From Sipunculus nudus (Eukaryota > Annelida > Sipuncula > Golfingiida > Sipunculidae), in the NCBI GenBank assembly GCA_026874595.1, contig CM049317.1:50983618-51047617 (forward strand): DNA of 64,000 nucleotides, in the 5' to 3' direction. Shown one piece after another: positions 6,837-46,071 of the stretch. Position numbers and translations under genes: made by a program. Positions within the stretch are counted from its first letter, which is position 1. The number at the start of each line of letters is the position of its first letter. Under the pieces are notes generated by a model that saw only the letters and a list, made by a program, of their open reading frames with translations, had not been told where the DNA came from and searched no databases.

Positions 6837-7357
6837 GGTGATTGGGTTCCTTTAAAATCTACACCTTTAGTAAACAGGTCAGGTATAGGCGAGCACAGGG
6901 AGAGTCGTGTGAGGCTTAGAACGATTAATGGAGCCAGATAACATGACATAAAATGAAACCCCCTTTGTACAGTTTGAAATATGATTTAAATAAAAATTAA
7001 TGGGATATCCAATTCAAAACTAATGCGCGTCAGTTATCTGCTCATTTTAGATACTGTTAAGATATCCTAAATTTGGTGGACTCTACCTGGATTCTACCTT
7101 GTCTGTATAAAACATTAAATATTGGTTATGTTAAACTTGCTGCCAAACAATGAAAAAGACTACTGTAATATTTTTCTTCCATGAACGACCATACAGATTA
7201 TGCTGTTAAATGAAACCCCCGGAATCGATTTGTAGGATTTGGTCTCAATAGATTTTATCCACCACTTACCACATTGCTGGGGTCGCCTTACTGACATTTT
7301 CGATTTATTTATTAATTCTGAGTCCTATTTGATCCAGACTGTGTATTTCACAAGTAT
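6837..7357. other. unassigned sequence
   Basis: I see no gene, RNA or repeat with a second copy in this window. Confidence 0.5.
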
Positions 7358-7609
7358 TCATTACGTACGTATCTAGTCATTATACTTGTGTTAATCACTT
7401 TATGGTATACATTAAATACGTATCTATAGCCATTATACAAATGTTAATCACTTTATGGTATACATTAAATACGTATCTATAGTCATTATACTTGTGTTAA
7501 TCACTTTATGGTATACATTAAATACGTATCTATAGTCATTATACAATTGTTTATCACTTTTCTGGTTTACATAACGTACGTATCTAGTCATTATACTTAT
7601 GTTTATCAC
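7358..7609. repeat. 53-bp tandem repeat, about 4.7 copies
   Basis: The block ACGTATCTATAGTCATTATA recurs with starts near 7367, 7418, 7471, 7524 and 7578. The period is 53 bp in the centre and 51-54 bp at the edges. The central three units are nearly identical and the outer ones are diverged, the usual pattern of a minisatellite that homogenises from the centre. Confidence 0.92.
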
Positions 7610-10064
7610 TGCATTCTCGCATCATCGACCGATTCGATAATGACTGTGTTAGCGTAGCCATGTATCTGTTGTCTGCAGAACTGAAACAAGCCAGCGAGGT
7701 GTGCACGCAGCCTTTGTTGTTACGTTTCGTTTGAATTACAGCTCACCGGCCGAGCATCCTATGTACCCCAGGCCCTAAGCAAACCACGTCAGGGGTAATC
7801 CTCTCTGAGCCTGTGGCCTGTTCAGACGGTTACGCGGGGCGATGAGCTGTCACTCAAAACGAAATAAACATGATTGGCTCCGTGTATTCCTCGCTTGGCT
7901 TTGTCTTCCAGCACAAGGTCTCATCTGATTGGACAAAAATACAGTGCTCCCCTCTGGTGTAGCGATGCAGGATAAGAGGTCATAACAAACAGCGCCTTAC
8001 GATATAGGTAGTAGCCCTATATAGGTGAAGCGCTGTGTAAAGAGCGTAACATTACGTATGAAAAATGAATGTGTAAACTAAATATGATAAAAGTTGACTA
8101 AACCCCTTCCCGGGGCCATGTACCCTCAAAAACATTATTTCTTCAATGTCCAAATAGGTAATATCATGATTAATATTATGGTTTTGTAATTCAAATGAGC
8201 TCAAACAATGTTTGATAAATGCTTTATCTCCCCCTCGAATTTTTTCAACAAAATACTGTTATCCAATTAAAATAATTAATAAAGGAGGGGGGTATCGAAC
8301 GAGAGAGAGAAAAAAAATGATAGACAGGGTGTCCTCTCGTGTAGTGTGAACCTTGTTTACGACTGCAATTTTGAATCAATTTTTGTAAAACATTACATTG
8401 AGAATTCTCGATTCAGAAACCAAGAACAAATAAAAATATGTTTTCTTTTTGCGTCCCTTTGATCCGCCATTAGTCATTTCGCAATAGCAATTGGATTCAT
8501 GTTCAATCCTTAACACCTAGATGAATTAATAAATGTATTCGATTTATAGCTTTGTTCCATATTGTTGTTCACACGGGAGAATCCTGTCACATTATCAGTT
8601 ATTTTGGTATTTTCTGAAAAACTTCTGTTCGTTGATACTTGAGAATCTTTGTAAGACTCTGGCATACATTGTTAATAAATCTTATCTTTACGTTAATAGC
8701 TAAATGACATTGTTTGAATTAACAAAATGTTAGGGGGGAGGTATAATATTGTATAACCTACCCCCCCCCCCCCCCCCCCCTTTGTACTCCACCAAATTGC
8801 GCCGATGCTGACCTATATAAAAGAATGGACAGGGATTGAAATCTCGGAATAGCTGTCGTTACATCACCCACGGAAATTGACACCAGATGTGACTCCAGTT
8901 GTGTTCCACCTGTGGCAGGATATTAGCGAAAGTCATCCTTGAACCTGGGCATGGAAATTAACTTTAGATTTCTTCTCATCTGGGAAAGAAAATTGGCTTA
9001 AGACACCATGCTGGGGAAGCGGAATTGCTGGTAAGAATTGTTTTCAGATGCGCTGTCCTTTCTGCACGGAAGTTGACTCAGGTATCCCCAATCACCTGCG
9101 TCATAAAAGTCAAATATCCAGCGATAAGAATTCATGAGAACAAGTTATTCCGAATTAATGACTCGGAAAGGGTGACTCGACTTCGTTTACCGAGGCTAGT
9201 CAGAAACAACGTTGTACTTTGTAAGAGCTAAAAGATTACGTTTCATTCTCGATTAGATTGGGTTAGATGGTTTGCAGGTGCGGTATTATCCTATATTTTA
9301 AACATGTCAGGATCTTAATACGACACATAAATAAAATTACATATAGTTATTTATATAAAAACAGGAAACCTTATGATTCTTTCGGTGTCAGAGCAAATTA
9401 CAGTATTCCTCGGAGAGAATAAAAAATGCTAAAAGAAGTCATGCAATCAATATGTGTAAATTAAAAAAAAAGATGGAATTTAGTCCTGTGAACCTTTATT
9501 ATCGCCCTCTGTGCCGCAGTGTATCAGTTTTCTTATTGAGCTAAGTCACCCAGAAAGTTTATATCACAGTGTTTTCTGTTCCAAGAAATATTTGATTTAC
9601 TGTGCAGTTTCACCGAGACTTCTAGAATGTCCTTGAACGCTGTCACCATCAACCATGGAGATGTGTATTTATCTGTGTGCGGCACAGCGAAGGCTGGTCC
9701 GTTCCGCTAAATCAAAACCATCAAGGCTAGTAACATGGCCCGAACAGAGTTTTCTGTATATTATCTGCACAGTTCAGTCGGCTGTCGATATATTTCTTTT
9801 ACACTGTAGAAATTCAAGAATTCTAATCAAAATATGACAAGGCATATTGTTTCAAAGTAATGCAAAATCAAGTTAAAATTAAGACCATTCTTTTTTCGTG
9901 CGAATTATGTTTAGAACTGCTTCTCATGACACATCAAGCATCAGTAGCGTCAATTTTTCTTCCAGGGTGGGGGGGATGACTTTGTATATTTATATATACA
10001 CACACACACACATATACCTTTTTGAGCATCTCTGAGTGACATATTCAACTATCTATATATATAT
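7610..10064. other. unassigned sequence with homopolymer C run
   Basis: I see no gene. A run of 20 C occurs at 8761-8780, preceded by a G-rich segment. A short CA microsatellite lies near 9997-10012. The frames at 9025-9231 and 9655-9837 match nothing I know. Confidence 0.5.
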
Positions 10065-10232
10065 ATAACTCTGAAGAAAAAAAACACTGTAAATTCACAA
10101 CAGTCTGTTTCACGGGATGCGACCCGTGAAACAGACTGTTGTGAATTTACAGTGTTGTTTTTCTTCAGAGTTATACCGCTCTGGCCTAGTCTGTAGGGCA
10201 TAGAGCACTTTACATGGGAGGGTAACACTACC

Positions 10233-10236
<4 letters not shown>
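10065..10236 (-). mobile_element. E-family ribozyme element, copy 1, with 52-bp-arm palindrome
   Basis: Bases 10065-10116 and 10123-10174 are inverted copies of each other, identical at 51 of 52 positions, with a 6-base loop ATGCGA. The right arm is the 3' half of the hammerhead segment seen intact at 23936-23983. The 5' half, with the CTGATGA core, has been replaced by the complement of the 3' half, so this copy cannot form the ribozyme. Bases 10175-10236, read on the minus strand, match the 5' module of the E copies at 23869 and 35114, including the GGCCTA...TAGGCC hairpin. A (TA)n array follows directly. Confidence 0.85.
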
Positions 10237-16055: not shown

Positions 16056-16112
16056 TGTTACGGGGTGACATAAAAGCGGACCGAACTCTCTCGCAAGTGA
16101 AGCTTGCTTTAC

Positions 16113-16166
16113 TGGCGAAGCGGTTGGTACGCCGGACTTGTGCGCCACCGTTATGGGTTCGAATCC
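16113..16166 (+). promoter_or_regulatory. tRNA-like Pol III A and B boxes inside the LTR
   Basis: TGGCGAAGCGG at 16113-16123 fits the tRNA A-box consensus. GGGTTCGAATCC at 16155-16166 fits the B box. The spacing, about 42 bp start to start, is tRNA-like. The tRNA-like stretch continues to GGCCCA but has no matching 5' acceptor strand and a poor anticodon arm, so it is not a tRNA gene. The same boxes, more or less mutated, occur in the LTRs at 18525-18681, 33568-33712 and 33837-33964. Use by Pol III is inferred. Confidence 0.65.
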
Positions 16167-16213
16167 GGGTACTGCCCAAAATTGTCCCCTTAACAATTGT
16201 CTTCGTAACAAAA

Positions 16214-16226
16214 TGGGGGCTCGTCC
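16214..16226 (+). other. tRNA-Pro primer-binding site
   Basis: TGGGGGCTCGTCC is complementary to the 3' end of animal tRNA-Pro including its CCA tail. Retroviruses such as murine leukaemia virus use the same primer tRNA. It lies 3 bases after the LTR. The copy at 33817-33833 extends the match to 17 bases. Confidence 0.75.
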
Positions 16227-16530
16227 AACGCGACGGTTAACTTTGTGGCCCAGGGAATTAGCCCACCAAAGTGTGACTCCTGGGATAAATGAGTACATTT
16301 GAGTTCGAGTTTAGGACAATCGAGTACAAGTCTTGGTCCAGAACAAGCGAGTTTGTAACGGGGTGACATAAAAGCGGACCGAACTGGCGAAGCGGTTGGA
16401 ACGCCGGACATGTGCGTCACTGACATGGGTTCGAATCCCGGAACGGCCCAGTATTTTCCACTTAAATTAATTTGTCTTTGTAACAAGTCAAAGTCCGAGC
16501 CCTGGAAAAGCTGGACTCAAGTCCGACCCA

Positions 16531-18292: not shown

Positions 18293-18296
<4 letters not shown>

Positions 18297-18681
18297 ACGG
18301 GGTGACATAAAAGCGGGCCGAACTTTCTCGCTAGTGAAGCTTGTTTTGCCAGCAAAGCGGTTGGTTCGCCGGACTTATCCCCTGAACCATTTGTCCTCGT
18401 AACAAAATGGGGGCTTGTCCAACGTGACGGTAAAACTTTGTGGCCAAGGGAATAAGTTCACCAAAGTGTGACTCCTGGGATAATTAGTCTTGTTCTGATA
18501 GCAGAACGCTCTTAAGAGGGCGTGTGTTACGGGGTGACATAAAAGCGGACCGAACTGTCTTGCCATTGAAGCTTGCTTTGGTACCGAAGCGGTTGGTTCG
18601 CCCGACTTGTGCGCCACCGATCTGAGTTCGACTCCCGGATCGGCCCAGGATTTTTCCCCTCATTTAATTGTCTTCGTAACA
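18293..18681 (+). mobile_element. TRIM-like miniature LTR retrotransposon, copy 2
   Basis: The 5' LTR is 18293-18404 (112 bp, lacking the segment with the B box). The interior is 18405-18524 (120 bp). The 3' LTR is 18525-18681 (157 bp, full). Both LTRs begin TGTTACGGGG and end CGTAACA. A primer-binding site, TGGGGGCTTGTCC, lies at 18408-18420. A purine-rich stretch, AAGAGGG, precedes the 3' LTR at about 18513-18519, where a polypurine tract belongs. ATAT lies directly on both sides (18289-18292 and 18682-18685), consistent with a 4-bp duplication inside a TA array. No protein is encoded. Confidence 0.85.
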
Positions 18682-18690
18682 ATATACACT

Positions 18691-18735
18691 TAACTCTGAA
18701 GAAAAACAATATATATATATATATATATATATATT
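18691..18735 (-). repeat. terminal fragment of an E-family element plus (TA)n
   Basis: TAACTCTGAAGAAAAACAA at 18691-18709 is the complement of the E-family 3' end (TTGTTTTTCTTCAGAGTTA), and a TA array follows. It begins about 10 bp after the TRIM element, so the TRIM apparently landed next to, or within, an E-plus-TA unit. Confidence 0.7.
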
Positions 18736-23697: not shown

Positions 23698-23814
23698 AGT
23701 TACGAAGACAAATTGCTCAGGGGAAAATTCTGGGCCGATCCGAACCCATAACGGTGGCGCACAAGTCCGGCGTTCACTAGCGAGACATTTCGGTCCGCTT
23801 TTATGTCACCCCGT

Positions 23815-23818
<4 letters not shown>
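23698..23818 (-). mobile_element. TRIM-like solo LTR, copy 3
   Basis: A single LTR in reverse orientation. The right end CCCCGTAACA is intact. The left end reads AGTTACGAAGAC where TGTTACGAAGAC is expected. At 121 bp it lacks about 30 bp around the A box but retains the B-box side. It is bracketed on both sides by TA arrays. A solo LTR normally results from LTR-LTR recombination of a full element. Confidence 0.8.

Positions 23819-23868
<50 letters not shown>
23819..23868. repeat. (TA)n microsatellite
   Basis: About 25 TA units between the solo LTR and the E-family element. Confidence 0.97.
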
Positions 23869-23873
<5 letters not shown>

Positions 23874-24006
23874 GTAGTGTTACCCTCCGATGTAAAGTGC
23901 TCTATGGCCTACAGACTAGGCCAGAGCGGTATAACATTCACCTGATGATCGGGTCGCATCCCGTGAAACAGACTGTTGTGAATTATCAGTGCTGTTTTTC
24001 TTCAGA

Positions 24007-24010
<4 letters not shown>
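23869..24010 (+). mobile_element. E-family ribozyme element, copy 2 (intact ribozyme)
   Basis: A unit of about 140 bp lies between two TA arrays. The 5' module (23869-23935) contains a strong hairpin, CTCTATGGCCTA with loop CAGAC and TAGGCCAGAG (23900-23926). The 3' module (23936-24010) contains a complete hammerhead ribozyme motif and ends CTTCAGAGTGAT. There is no open frame, A or B box, or poly-A tail. Known relatives in kind are Penelope-like elements and animal retrozymes, both of which carry hammerhead motifs. Whether E is a non-autonomous derivative of either is inference. Confidence 0.8.
23936..23983 (+). ncRNA. type I hammerhead ribozyme
   Basis: Stem I: ATTCAC at 23936-23941 pairs perfectly with GTGAAT at 23978-23983. 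Core: CTGATGA at 23942-23948 and GAA at 23965-23967. Stem II: CGGG (23950-23953) pairs with CCCG (23960-23963) around loop TCGCAT. Stem III: ACA (23968-23970) pairs with TGT (23974-23976) around GAC. The expected cleavage site follows T23977 (GTT triplet). All invariant core positions are present. The weak point is a T-T apposition (23949 and 23964) at the base of stem II, where natural hammerheads usually have G-C. The 3-bp stem III is typical of hammerheads in retroelements, which tend to act as dimers. Confidence 0.8.

Positions 24011-24051
<41 letters not shown>
24009..24051. repeat. (TA)n microsatellite
   Basis: About 21 TA units, directly following the E-family element. Confidence 0.97.
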
Positions 24052-33567: not shown

Positions 33568-33964
33568 TGTTACGAAGACAAATCGTACAGGGAAAACCCT
33601 GGGCCGATCCGGGAGTCAAACCCAGGGCGGTGGCCCAAGTCCGGCGTACCAACCGCTTCACTAACAAAGCAAGCTTCACTAGCGAGATATGCTTTTATGT
33701 CACCCCGTAACACACCCCCTATTAAAAGCGTTCTGCTATAAAAAAAAAAAAAAACTAATTATCCCAGGAGTCACACTTTGGTAAGCTTATTCCCTGGGCC
33801 ACAAAGTTTTACCATCATCCCGGACGAGCCCCCTTTTGTTACGAATACAAATTGTAGAGGGAAAATCCTGGGCCGATCCGGAAGTCGAACCCAGGTCAGT
33901 GGCGCACAAGTCCGGTGTACCAACCGCTTCGCTAACAATTCGGTCCGCTATTATGTCACCCCGT
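33568..33964 (-). mobile_element. TRIM-like miniature LTR retrotransposon, copy 4
   Basis: Read on the minus strand: the 5' LTR is 33964-33837, the interior 33836-33713 and the 3' LTR 33712-33568. The primer-binding site at 33817-33833 reads GGGGGCTCGTCCGGGAT, a 17-base match to the classical tRNA-Pro site. A polypurine-like AATAGGGGGTG (33713-33723 complement) directly precedes the 3' LTR. GTATAC flanks at 33562-33567 and overlaps the right end at 33963-33968, so ATAC is a likely 4-bp target duplication and the last bases of the outer LTR are lost. The interior holds a run of 14 A on the plus strand and no open frame. Confidence 0.85.
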
Positions 33965-35040
33965 ATACATGTAACCTTAGGATCTACGTCAGCGTCATGT
34001 GAGGCCTAAAGTTTGCTACCAATATGAACAACAATTTAGGGACAAAGATCCTGGCAATCAGGTAGACAGGCGTTTAAATTTTAAGCTAAAATCATTAGAG
34101 GTCAATCTTAAGTTTGTATATGAAGTTTATTTATACAATATGGACAATATTTTAAAGAATTATAAATTGAAATATTTAATATAAATATATGGCATATAAC
34201 CTTGTTATGAGGGAAGGGAGCAATTTTATTATTTACTGATGGATAAAAAAGTGCTTTCTTTTTTTCAGTTTGTGAGGCGAACAAAACTTTAAAAAATATT
34301 AGAACTACAAAAGTCAAGATTTACAAATACACAATTCCACATAAAAATATATGCTTCGATACATGTTGCGAAAGTGAAGAAAATTATAATATGTTGGGAG
34401 AAGAAATTGTCCCGTTTGTCTAAAGGGGTAGCGGGGTTGTTCTGAGATTTCGACCAGGTGTACTTTATTCCAAGGGGGGGGGGGGGGTTATGCTCTTTAT
34501 CACTAACCCTTACATAACCTTACCAAACAAAGCCTTTATTCCGGGCAGTAGTGGCCGCAGTAACCAACCCCGTGGAAAGACCACCTGTATAAAGGCTAAT
34601 ACATGATTGCTTGCCAGAATGAAGTCCTGATGACCTTGGAAAAAATTAAACCATAAACTCTCAAAGGTTTACACATGAATTTCACATAGGAATACGACGT
34701 CACTTGCGTTTACGTTTGTATAAACATAATAAACATACCTTATTCGCCAGCCCGGAGGAGCTTGACCACAAGGTGGCATGGCCGATATTGCGTGCTGACC
34801 TAAGTGCGGTTACAGTGTACTGTCAATAAGATAAATGGACAAGATGCTCAAACAGCTGCGCTAATAGACCTTGCGGCATGCTTGTCAGTAAATCACCGCT
34901 TAACCATAACATAATTAACTGCCATGACCGAACTGCGAAATACATGCATGTTCAAAGCACTCACAGAAGCTGTTATAATATTGGATATGGCTGTATAATG
35001 TTTTGTGCGACAAATGTTTGAAAGCCGAGTTTATATATTC
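33965..35040. other. unassigned sequence
   Basis: I see no gene. A run of about 12 G occurs near 34476-34487. Confidence 0.5.
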
Positions 35041-35113: not shown

Positions 35114-35262
35114 AGAAGTCAAAGGTAGAGTTACCATCCTTTGTAAAGTGCTCTTTGGCCTATAGACTAGGCCAGAGCGGAATAACGCTGAAGAAAAACA
35201 ATACTGTAAATTTACAACAGTCTGTTTCACGGGATGCGACACGATCATCAGGTGAATGTGGT
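35114..35262 (+). mobile_element. E-family ribozyme element, copy 3 (ribozyme module inverted)
   Basis: The 5' module (35114-35186) matches copy 2, including the GGCCTA...TAGGCC hairpin, in plus orientation. After AATAAC, the second module continues in the opposite orientation to copy 2: CTGAAGAAAAACAATACTG leading to ATCATCAGGTGAATG. The hammerhead therefore lies on the minus strand at 35210-35257. It has one mismatch in stem I and one in stem II and is probably inactive or weak. Confidence 0.75.
35210..35257 (-). ncRNA. decayed hammerhead ribozyme motif
   Basis: On the minus strand, ATTCAC, CTGATGA, a stem II hairpin with loop TCGCAT, GAAACAGACTGTT and GTAAAT follow in order. Compared with 23936-23983, G to A in the 3' stem I strand and G to T in stem II each break a pair. 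The core residues are kept, as is the T-T apposition at the base of stem II, so that feature is a family trait and not a one-off mutation. Confidence 0.6.
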
Positions 35263-37837
35263 TAGAATGAAGCTAACGGCGTGGGTTTTCAAGAAATTCA
35301 AGAAATTTAAACATCAGTATCTTTACCTTGGCAGTGAAAATGTTGACATTTGCGATTCGGAATGGGACGCGGGGGCATTAAGAATTTCGAAGATCTTTGA
35401 CTGTTCACATATTTTATTATTGTTAGACCTATAACAGATGGATTGACGTATGAAAGATCTGAAAGATGAATGCAATGAAGGTTGTAAGGCAAGTAAGCTT
35501 TTCCTAATTAAAAAAAAAAAACAGGAATATACATACCTCGCCTAAGAAGTGCATATTAAAGAAAAAAAAAAGAAAAAGGACCAGATATATGTATGCATCG
35601 ACAATATCATTGGCAAAATATAGCCAACAGAAGTTTAATATTTAATATTTTGATAAACCTGTGGATCTATTTTCCGGTGTTATATCCCTGACCCGATTTT
35701 GTAAATATAAACAGAAAATTATTCAACTTCCTTGGATAGTTTACGTGATACCACCGTTTCCAAGACTGTCGAGGGTGTAAATATAGGCGACAGTGGAGCG
35801 ACACTTGTTGTGTTCATTTCAACATTATGCAAAAGGATAACCTGGATGGATAGTGGGATTAACCATTATAACCATTTTTGCTTGCTGAAATGAGAAATGA
35901 GTGCCAAGGCATCATGTGTTTCATATATACTGACCAGCAAATGGGTCGATGACTGGGTTAAATGTGAGGCCAAACATGCTTAAATCCATCACTTAAGCAG
36001 GGTGATTCTTATGCTCAATATACCTTAATCTTGCGCGGAGTTGCACGCTTTCCGGTCCTCTGCGAAGGGCAGTTCGGCTGTTTTCGGTGGTAACCTCCAA
36101 GCAACGTAATAACCACACAAAAATCGCCCAAAAGATGTGTACATTAAAATTTATTAATTCTCATATCGGCGAAGTCACTGCCGGAACAATAACCTTTAGA
36201 ATGAGGTATAGCACTGTATCATACCCAACGCTGTTTTAGAGAACCTTGAGAACGAATGTGACCAACTTTTTTATATACTTATCTACATATATATATATAT
36301 ATATGTATGCATGTATGTCTGTATGCAGTTGCATGTATTGTTTACACTTTAGCCTTATTTTTATTTCCTTAACATATCTCTTCTAGTTTCATTGGTTTTA
36401 GATCCTACTTTTTGCGTAGTCGTGCATTCTAGCACATCTAATTTGGTATGTCAAATGAGCATGCAAGCATTATGAAATGACCAATCATTTAAATGGCATA
36501 TAACATATCAAATATCTTGTGTCATGTTTTAGGACTACCTAAGTAGAAATGAATCAAGCTATGACTTAAGGTATTTTTTTTCACAAAAAGGCAAACCTGA
36601 AATGATAAAGGTGAGATGGGGGTTTTTGGGTGTCCATCAAGCAGCCGTTATCAGACCAGCTGTATTAGGTTATCAAGTTTTATTCATTATCATGATAGCC
36701 TACTTATACTGATGACTGTATTTATGCCTTATCGTCTCACGTTACATTCAATACACCTGTGAAGGAAGGCATTAAATAGCTAAAAAAAATAGGACACAAG
36801 CTTCCATGCAACATACATCAAGTTCTTCGTCTGTTTCATCACATACCGGCTAAACGAGAATAAAATACACCCTAGGAAAAAAGGGGGGATTTTTTATGGT
36901 TCTTTTATAAACTACATAGTTCTACAAGGAACCATGGTTCCTTCTGTAATCCTTTTCTAGGTGAATAGATTAAATCTGGCACTTCCAAGTTCGTGCCCTG
37001 ATCCTAATTTATAATAAGAATCCATATATATTAATGCAAGTGGTACCTGCGTCACAAGTCCAAAGCCCTGACCACTACACATCCACACTCACCTAATTTC
37101 ATATTTATAATTTCACTATTTTGGCTCGGAGCTCAAGTGTCGATATTACTAGTAATCTGCATTCTAAGGAATGCAAGCCTTCGCCATATGGGATTCCAAT
37201 TATTCGTTTGTGCTGTCAGCCGATTAACCACCATGTTTACCTTTTACCTTATATAAACAGTGATTGCTTTGACTGTTTATATTAATAGCTGATGAGTTCT
37301 TAAACTAAACAAAAAATGTGATATAATTTAGTTGGATATGTTTCTGGCTTTTGACTCGAGTAGGCTATAAGTAAGGTAGGAAAATGAATTAAATGCATTT
37401 AATTCTTTCAGCATTCACACGTTTAAAGTAATAAAAGGCTAAGTATATTCCTTTTAACTTTGTAATTCATTTTAAATAATCGTCTGGGTGGAAGCGCGTG
37501 GTCCCCCATTTAAAGTCCCACAATTTCCAAGAATGAAGTTAAAAGCCTTTCCAAGAAATGTTATATTTGTACTGGTATTTCACGATTGTCGACCACGGCC
37601 GCATTATTGCTCATAAAACCCATCCTGACTGACATCAAAGTATCTGTTATGACATTTCCTTTCATATTGGGGCCGAGGCTTTTCATGTTATATTCACTAA
37701 TAACCCGACCCATTTAAAATACCATGTCATCTACTTTTTTTTATTTTTTTGGGAGGTAACCGCCTCCATTTTCTAATGCTAACTTATCTAATTCTTAACC
37801 TAAGTATGTACATCTGCAAGGTTTCTATTTCGGTTTG
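35263..37837. other. unassigned sequence
   Basis: I see no gene. A short (TA)n lies at 36288-36304. GCATTCTAAGGAATGCAAGC near 37160 is a palindrome-containing motif, shared with 49.18 kb and, inverted, with the end of family G. Confidence 0.5.
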
Positions 37838-42923: not shown

Positions 42924-43193
42924 TTTTGGCAGAATTAAAATCTGCAAATAATCAATTTTTCTTACTTAATAGATATATAAAACTTAATAGCTTCAAAATT
43001 AGTTAAATAATAGGGAAGACGTATTTTGTTCAGTATATCAGTTTTTTTAACTTATGTTTTTGGCAGAGTTAAAATCTGCAAATAATCAATTTTTCTTACT
43101 TAATAGATATATGAAACTTAATAGCTTCAAAATTAGTTAAATAATAGGGAAGACGTATTTTGTTCAGTATATCAGTTTTTTTAACTTATGTTC
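42924..43193. repeat. 134-bp tandem duplication, 2 copies
   Basis: TGGCAGAATTAAAATCTGC starts at 42927 and its counterpart TGGCAGAGTTAAAATCTGC at 43061. The units match apart from two A/G differences over about 130 bp. There are exactly two copies, so this is a recent local duplication and not a satellite array. Confidence 0.95.
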
Positions 43194-45395: not shown

Positions 45396-46071
45396 TATGC
45401 CCCCGCCACAAAGTGGCCGGGGCATATAGTTTTACCCATGTTCGTCATTCCGTCTTTCCGTCCTTCCGTCATTCCGTCATTTCGAAATCAAACAGTTGTA
45501 CGGACTTTCTTTCGCAATGCCTGCAGATATTGGCCTGATTTTTGGTGTGTGGGCAGATAATGACCAGTTACAGGTCGAGTTTGCGTTTCGTCCCGGTTGA
45601 ACTACTTTTGACCGTTTTACGGCTCCTGAACATAGAAAATTTCATGAAAAATATAAATTTTCATGACAAATACACATGTACAGACTTTTTTTCGCAATAC
45701 CTGCAGATATTGGCCTGATCTTTGGTGTGTGGGCAGAAAATGACCAGTTACAGATCGAGTTCGCGTTTCGTCTCGGTTGACCTACTTTTGATTGTTTTAC
45801 GGATCCTAACCATAGAAAATTTCATGAAAGACAGAAATTTTTATGGAAAATGCACATGTATGGATTTTTTTTTTCACAATGCCTGCAGATACTGGCCTGA
45901 TTTTTGGTGTGTTGCTTGATAATCACCCGTTACAGATCGAGTTTGCATTTTGCACTTGTTGACCTTTTTTGGCCATACGAGACCTCCTGAACTTAAATTT
46001 CTTTTCAAAATTTAACAAATGTTTCTAATTTGCCCCAGGCGGGGGCATTCGTGTCGTTCCGACACATCTAG
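45396..46071 (+). mobile_element. Helitron-like non-autonomous element with three 180-bp monomers
   Basis: The left end TATGCCCCCGCC folds with GGGGCATA into a hairpin and is inverted near the right end as GGCGGGGGCATT (46038-46049). Right terminus: hairpin GTGTCGTTCCGACAC at 46051-46065, then AT and CTAG at 46068-46071, followed by T. Hairpin plus CTAG before T is the classical Helitron 3' end. Inside are three tandem monomers, marked by CCTGCAGATATTGGCCTGAT-like blocks, with starts near 45513, 45693 and 45875. The 5' end lacks a clear TC start. No Rep/helicase is encoded. Confidence 0.65.

Follow-up and report, generated by a model that had tools for sequence, protein, structure and literature searches.

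What is the short hammerhead-like motif at positions 23936 to 23983 of this 64,000-nt stretch of Sipunculus nudus DNA (the window, always taken at its full length): part of a small retroelement with a ribozyme of its own, or a remnant of something larger? The initial annotation, made from the letters alone, called it a complete type I hammerhead, and in letters and pairing it is one, with the CUGAUGA, GAAA and NUH core elements and three helices in the type I order:

23936..23983, plus strand: minimal type I hammerhead motif, predicted cleavage after T23977
23936-23941 with 23978-23983: stem I, 6 bp
23942-23948: core CTGATGA
23949..23964, plus strand: stem II with a T-T apposition (23949/23964) at its base
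23950-23953/23960-23963: stem II pairs, 4 bp with a 6-nt loop
23965-23967: GAA
23968-23970 with 23974-23976: stem III
T23977: last base of the cleavage triplet (GTT)

A descriptor of the same geometry finds a single site across the 64-kb window, and in 2.298 Gb of order-2 random sequence it finds three matches with stem I of at least 5 and stem II of at least 4 pairs, which gives a chance expectation of 1.7e-4 per window, both strands counted, in such random sequence. The covariance check proposed with the annotation came out at background level: Rfam 15 gives no hammerhead match up to E=10 in a scan of the window stretch, and none on one intact tandem unit of the parental element described below (L100). 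For the isolated 48-mer the best predicted fold pairs CUG with CAG (-11.3 kcal/mol, against -6.9 for the hammerhead fold), and stems I and II are present in both. Tertiary contacts between loops 1 and 2 are absent, stem I being an unbroken 6-bp helix without an internal loop. A hammerhead normally needs a Watson-Crick pair at the base of stem II (10.1-11.1). Here that pair is replaced by U-U in 60/60 copies, so that the apposition is indeed a family trait, as had been proposed from fewer copies. These copies come from a recount over 47 non-overlapping loci and the window, where 60 of 66 BLAST rows cover the whole motif; 37 of the 60 have an intact core and no broken pair among the 13, a share biased upwards as the copies were collected by similarity. 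The expected covariation in the stems did not appear, with no change on both sides of a pair and pairing no better than in shuffles (394/500 reach the score), in an alignment of weak power that consists of 27 distinct motif sequences from close copies, three or more of these sequences being damaged or incomplete. This says little on the master element, because copies diverge after insertion. The missing covariation and the background-level Rfam result are both among the outcomes that the initial annotation had listed as refuting it. The descriptor detects no other hammerhead family in 223,575 bases of fetched loci, overlaps included. Coding from the ATG inside the motif was considered and rejected, given stops in the copies and a parental ORF that begins downstream.

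BLAST within the window finds three copies, here named A (matched over 23871-24009), B (10068-10234) and C (35122-35259), in which the two modules around the ribozyme differ in their relative orientation:

23819..23869: (TA)n target, left side of copy A
23871..23935, minus strand: long-end arm of copy A, an inverted 65-nt 'tail' with a strong hairpin, 5'-truncated at parent position 1520, 3' end CTACCTT against (TA)n
23934..24012, plus strand: short-end arm of copy A, the hammerhead and downstream sequence, 5'-truncated at parent position 1447, 3' end CTTCAGAGT against (TA)n
24010..24050: (TA)n target, right side of copy A
10064..10126, minus strand: short-end arm of copy B, truncated inside stem II, the 5' half of the ribozyme missing
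10123..10234, plus strand: long-end arm of copy B, head to head with its short-end arm, then (TA)n
35122..35287, minus strand: copy C, a single long-end arm with ribozyme and tail contiguous in parental order

It was from this differing orientation that the composite nature of the 139-bp 'unit' first became apparent. Copy A (23871-24009) is two opposed, strongly 5'-truncated ends of one Penelope-like element (PLE), set head to head in (TA)n. The TA arrays noted around it are its insertion context. The host is not the single element of about 140 bp that it had been taken for, as the 65 bp on its left come, inverted, from sequence that lies 3' of the ribozyme in the parent. The hairpin reported 5' of the ribozyme is real and its position is not: it lies 3' in the parent, where it forms the 'tail' between two reverse transcription start sites, and is inverted in copy A. 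The hammerhead of copy C (35185-35259, minus strand) keeps the core and has uncompensated mismatches in stem I and stem II (23980 G->A and 23952 G->T in copy A numbering). From the three window copies alone I had read them as 5'-inverted retrocopies, which was overturned by the direction and the parental order of genome copies.

Among the other repeats of the window are three short LTR pairs (16056-16484, 18293-18680, 33569-33965) and a single LTR copy (23699-23818), which lies between TA arrays and adjoins the hammerhead insertion. These LTRs hold a tRNA-like sequence (TGTTACGG..CGTAACA), in several followed by TGGGGGCTCGTCC, presumably a proline-tRNA-like primer site. By comparison with PMC10886601, the elements look like Helenus-type TRIMs. 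A 16-nt fragment at 18693-18708, between such a TRIM LTR and a TA array, matches the short end of the PLE. Tandem repeats are found at 42924-43192 (134-bp period, 2 copies, 98%), 7354-7610 (53/106 bp) and 45497-45950 (180 bp).

When the 139-bp sequence is searched against its own genome (1.43 Gb), 2067 first-look candidates are obtained, the best 40 of which were scored. In the 30 loci fetched from this first search the outer ends are nearly constant (a few, as in L018 and L019, lack some bases), and they are set in (TA)n, or at a few loci in another kind of simple repeat. The inner junctions fall into 25 classes; they are private in 22 loci and shared in eight, in sets of three, three and two (L003/L011/L027, L004/L010/L012 and L006/L022). 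Because the inner junctions vary while the outer ends hardly do, most copies appear to have been joined anew from parent sequence, which is not what the proposed new miniature ribozyme retroelement would leave. Copies with contiguous ribozyme and tail reach upstream to varying points, as expected of 5' truncation. Neither the composite nor any other short non-coding unit of the kind known from metazoan retrozymes was seen in head-to-tail tandem in the fetched loci, although tandem copies had been suggested. At L066:1-167, three direct ribozyme pieces follow one another at intervals of about 48 nt, the part from CTGATGA over stem II to GAAA having been duplicated locally in tandem. A genome search with the 65-nt tail gives 40 identical sequences among the 40 best matches listed, and the family therefore looks young. 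Viral contigs hold no relatives at exact-pattern or close-relative sensitivity, a collection from which records of this genome itself are perhaps absent.

The parental Penelope-like element, which the initial annotation had advised to look for, is present and abundant in the same genome as head-to-tail units of 2,925 bp; the hammerhead-like motif is of the kind described for these elements. One such unit was read through in L100, where the hammerhead, its core and stems intact, lies between consecutive ORFs and is followed by both start sites:

852: end of the upstream ORF
1460: ribozyme core
after 1526: short site
after 1589: long site
from 1636: next open frame, first ATG at 1675, running past the fetched end, with putative reverse transcriptase (RT) motifs

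In L051 an EN-like ORF lies upstream of the ribozyme on the same strand, and many copies whose 5' truncation falls at differing points keep the parental order without a break. A protein search gave 142 scored matches out of 3298 candidates, with stop-to-stop frames of 270 to 1158 aa (713 aa the commonest value). Of the 142, 42 fall within 153 kb of the C17 plus strand (42718687 to 42871518), most of them at intervals of about 2,925 bp or multiples of it. The short-site end of this array lies in (TA)n, and its first match starts inside the ORF. The PLE ORF is tentatively labelled RT by the motifs FDIVDFYPS...YRDDG and its C-terminus, likewise tentatively, GIY-YIG by VYKA..YIG. Profile searches add little: Pfam RVT_1 matches L053 at E=0.021, below the cut-off, and GIY-YIG gives none there, neither model matches L100, NCBIfam matches to the PLE ORF are all sub-threshold, and PDB sequence searches with the PLE protein return nothing relevant. 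AlphaFold models of the protein have a pLDDT of 35 and 31.5 and are unusable. The tandem units with pseudo-LTRs at a 2,925-bp period and the inverted arms, with a tail on one arm and an AT-rich target, are those of a PLE. Very long arrays of 2.9-kb PLE units occur at C17:42718687-42871518 and C12:49440251-49513309 (L100-L105).

In the parent, the order is the short RT-start site (CTTCAGAGT, then TATA), the 63-nt hairpin tail and the long RT-start site (CTACCTT, then CTA). I sorted 96 arms into 41 head-to-head pairs, all 41 with one long and one short end, and 14 unpaired arms; arms with 3' ends other than these two sites were dropped before pairing, and 30 of the 41 pairs are the query copy or loci of the first search, whose query itself carried one long and one short end. 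Two further pairs read by eye (L060, L061) are likewise long plus short (2/2). A sample chosen by the tail alone, for which 38 of the 40 best matches were fetched (all 40 identical in the tail, hence young copies), shows a short-end arm as the adjacent inverted arm in 21/21 classifiable cases; the remainder comprises 11 loci without an inverted arm in BLAST, two with the partner at the fetched edge and four in which the long arm reaches the edge. Outer flanks are mostly TA, and in this sample the inner junctions overlap or leave a gap, from -12 to +32 nt. In 11 of 23 pairs the two arms have 5' ends within 2 nt of each other, some via local palindromes. Single long arms of about 145-148 bp with a unique left flank are found in L067, L077 and L094. 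With the same two ends, insertion size ranges from 139 bp to about 75 kb. The largest, on C12, ends on the left with the short site and on the right with the long site, with (TA)n beyond each, and has a head-to-head centre between arms of about 30 kb (short-site end) and 45 kb (long-site end); ends and centre were read, and the continuity of the interior is inferred from the spacing of 9 minus-strand and 12 plus-strand scored matches. Order, ends, orientation, TA context and varied junctions are all directly visible in these copies.

With high confidence, I regard the motif as the leader ribozyme of a Penelope-like retrotransposon, and the composite around it as the product of priming from both sides at two sites. 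The parent RNA would probably begin with an A at parent coordinate 1438 (of L051:4982-6565), with the hammerhead 11 nt on, followed by the short site, the 63-nt tail, the long site, the ORF with its RT-like and GIY-YIG-like parts, the 3' region and the next unit. The element protein would cut the (TA)n target, and reverse transcription would be primed from both sides of the cut, at one internal site each; the two cDNAs would run 5'-ward for variable lengths and be joined head to head, in many cases across an overlap of a few bases. In copy A, both arms would have stopped almost at once, leaving 139 bp. What I infer here is the priming on either side of the cut, the 5' end of the RNA and ribozyme cleavage, if it occurs. 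A (TA)n primer could anneal at both sites, because TA follows both in the template (TATA and CTA). In PMC11167929, the tail lies between two internal RT starts and the PLE protein cuts and extends both strands; no strand difference was seen there in the RT start, and no homology of the start site to the cut DNA. The rule of one site of each kind and the TA annealing are thus not predicted by that work. Twin-priming on one RNA, suggested by long arms of the first search that end near the short site, was discarded when the 5' ends of long arms in the tail-only sample proved to be spread, with a peak at 1438.

Whether the longest arms are products of reverse transcription is evenly balanced, as the long head-to-head tandem arms could equally have grown by unequal crossing-over after insertion, with similar units and constant spacing that fit homogenisation. 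However, the C12 insertion has the same plan as the smallest copies (a short end, a long end and a single head-to-head centre), so its arms may be primary products.

It is rather unlikely, though worth weighing, that the ribozyme no longer matters and its sequence is kept as the core promoter and RT-recognition region of the PLE. In the tail-chosen sample the 5' ends of arms peak at A1438 (21 of 55 within 1435-1443, 10 of them exactly there). This position matches the initiator consensus (Inr, TCATTCT), and GGTCG at +28, which falls within stem II and its loop, matches that of the DPE; such combinations of these post hoc motifs occur 19 times in 128,000 window positions and twice in the 1,584-nt parent piece. 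On this reading, the letters of L051:6419-6450 (parent 1438 to +32) may serve ribozyme and core promoter alike. The lack of covariation, the background level in Rfam and the U-U in stem II also favour a promoter, as does the PLE leader, which is predicted to fold otherwise (stem I pair probabilities of 0.01). Against it stand the intact core and stems in the L100 tandem unit and in those 37 copies, the small probability of a chance origin and the axolotl hammerhead HHR_Amex2 (PMC7229834), which cleaves despite a U-U at the base of helix II. Near the cleavage site, 5 of 55 arm 5' ends are found (1489-1493), convincingly in one pair (L081), with L091 lying in a palindrome and L066 doubtful. Because the peak is at 1438 and not at the cleavage site, the usual RT templates are likely uncleaved RNAs that would start 11 nt before the ribozyme. 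According to PMC11167929, ribozyme mutants had no effect on insertion, and cleavage needed the protein.

Less probable again is that the hammerhead frees circles of the 2.9-kb PLE RNA, which the RT would round repeatedly from both (TA)n sides, so that a single event could give head-to-head multi-unit arms or, on stopping early, a 139-bp scar. If true, this would provide a function for the PLE ribozyme, a mystery according to PMC7761336, and would make the two RT-start sites obligatory partners, each serving its own side of the cut.

That the 139-bp unit is itself a non-autonomous mini-retrozyme, which self-cleaves, circularises and spreads as a unit, is very improbable: the three locus sets with a common inner junction, the single long arms with a unique left flank and the three direct ribozyme pieces of L066 would suit it, but most first-search loci have a private inner junction, two of the shared ones show overlaps of 3-4 nt and may recur by microhomology, the outer ends are the parent's two sites, and L081 is the only arm pair that convincingly begins at the cleavage site (to within 1-2 nt).

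The initial annotation is thus partly supported, and the leader ribozyme of a PLE remains the preferred reading. The family is useful as it looks young, has long open frames in tandem arrays and follows a clean end rule, so that both the purpose of the PLE hammerhead and the way in which PLEs make head-to-head insertions become testable within one genome.

Several known systems resemble this one in part. The axolotl HHR_Amex2 shares the U-U at the base of helix II and a short helix III, and its monomer is cleaved to 22% within one hour, its dimer more efficiently; in contrast to the ribozyme here, which sits in a coding PLE, it lies in tandem 350-bp retrozyme repeats (PMC7229834). The metazoan non-LTR retrozymes of the same source also have a type I hammerhead in a low-GC repeat and may depend on PLE proteins. 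However, they are tandem non-coding units of 170-400 bp expressed as circRNA, whereas the 139-bp composite has no fixed form and turned up nowhere in tandem in the fetched loci. The closest relatives are the minimal type I hammerheads in PLE pseudo-LTRs (Cervera and de la Pena 2014 and Lunse 2017, as cited in PMC7761336, PMC6155905 and PMC11167929), of which thousands are reported to be dispersed in animal genomes and which in their PLE variants likewise lack loop contacts (PMC7761336). The ribozyme joins this group, with a minimal type I hammerhead devoid of loop-loop contacts between tandem ORFs. Its element also resembles the PLEs described in PMC3846280 (inverted pLTRs, a tail on one pLTR, AT-rich targets), and shares the internal RT start of known PLEs. 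It differs from known PLEs with such hammerheads in a tail of about 63 nt instead of 30-40, and from PAc of Anolis in a cleavage site 179 nt before the first ATG and not inside the ORF start. The U-U in stem II, arms apparently of tens of kb and a pairing of long with short ends that is so far without exception further set this element apart from known PLEs.
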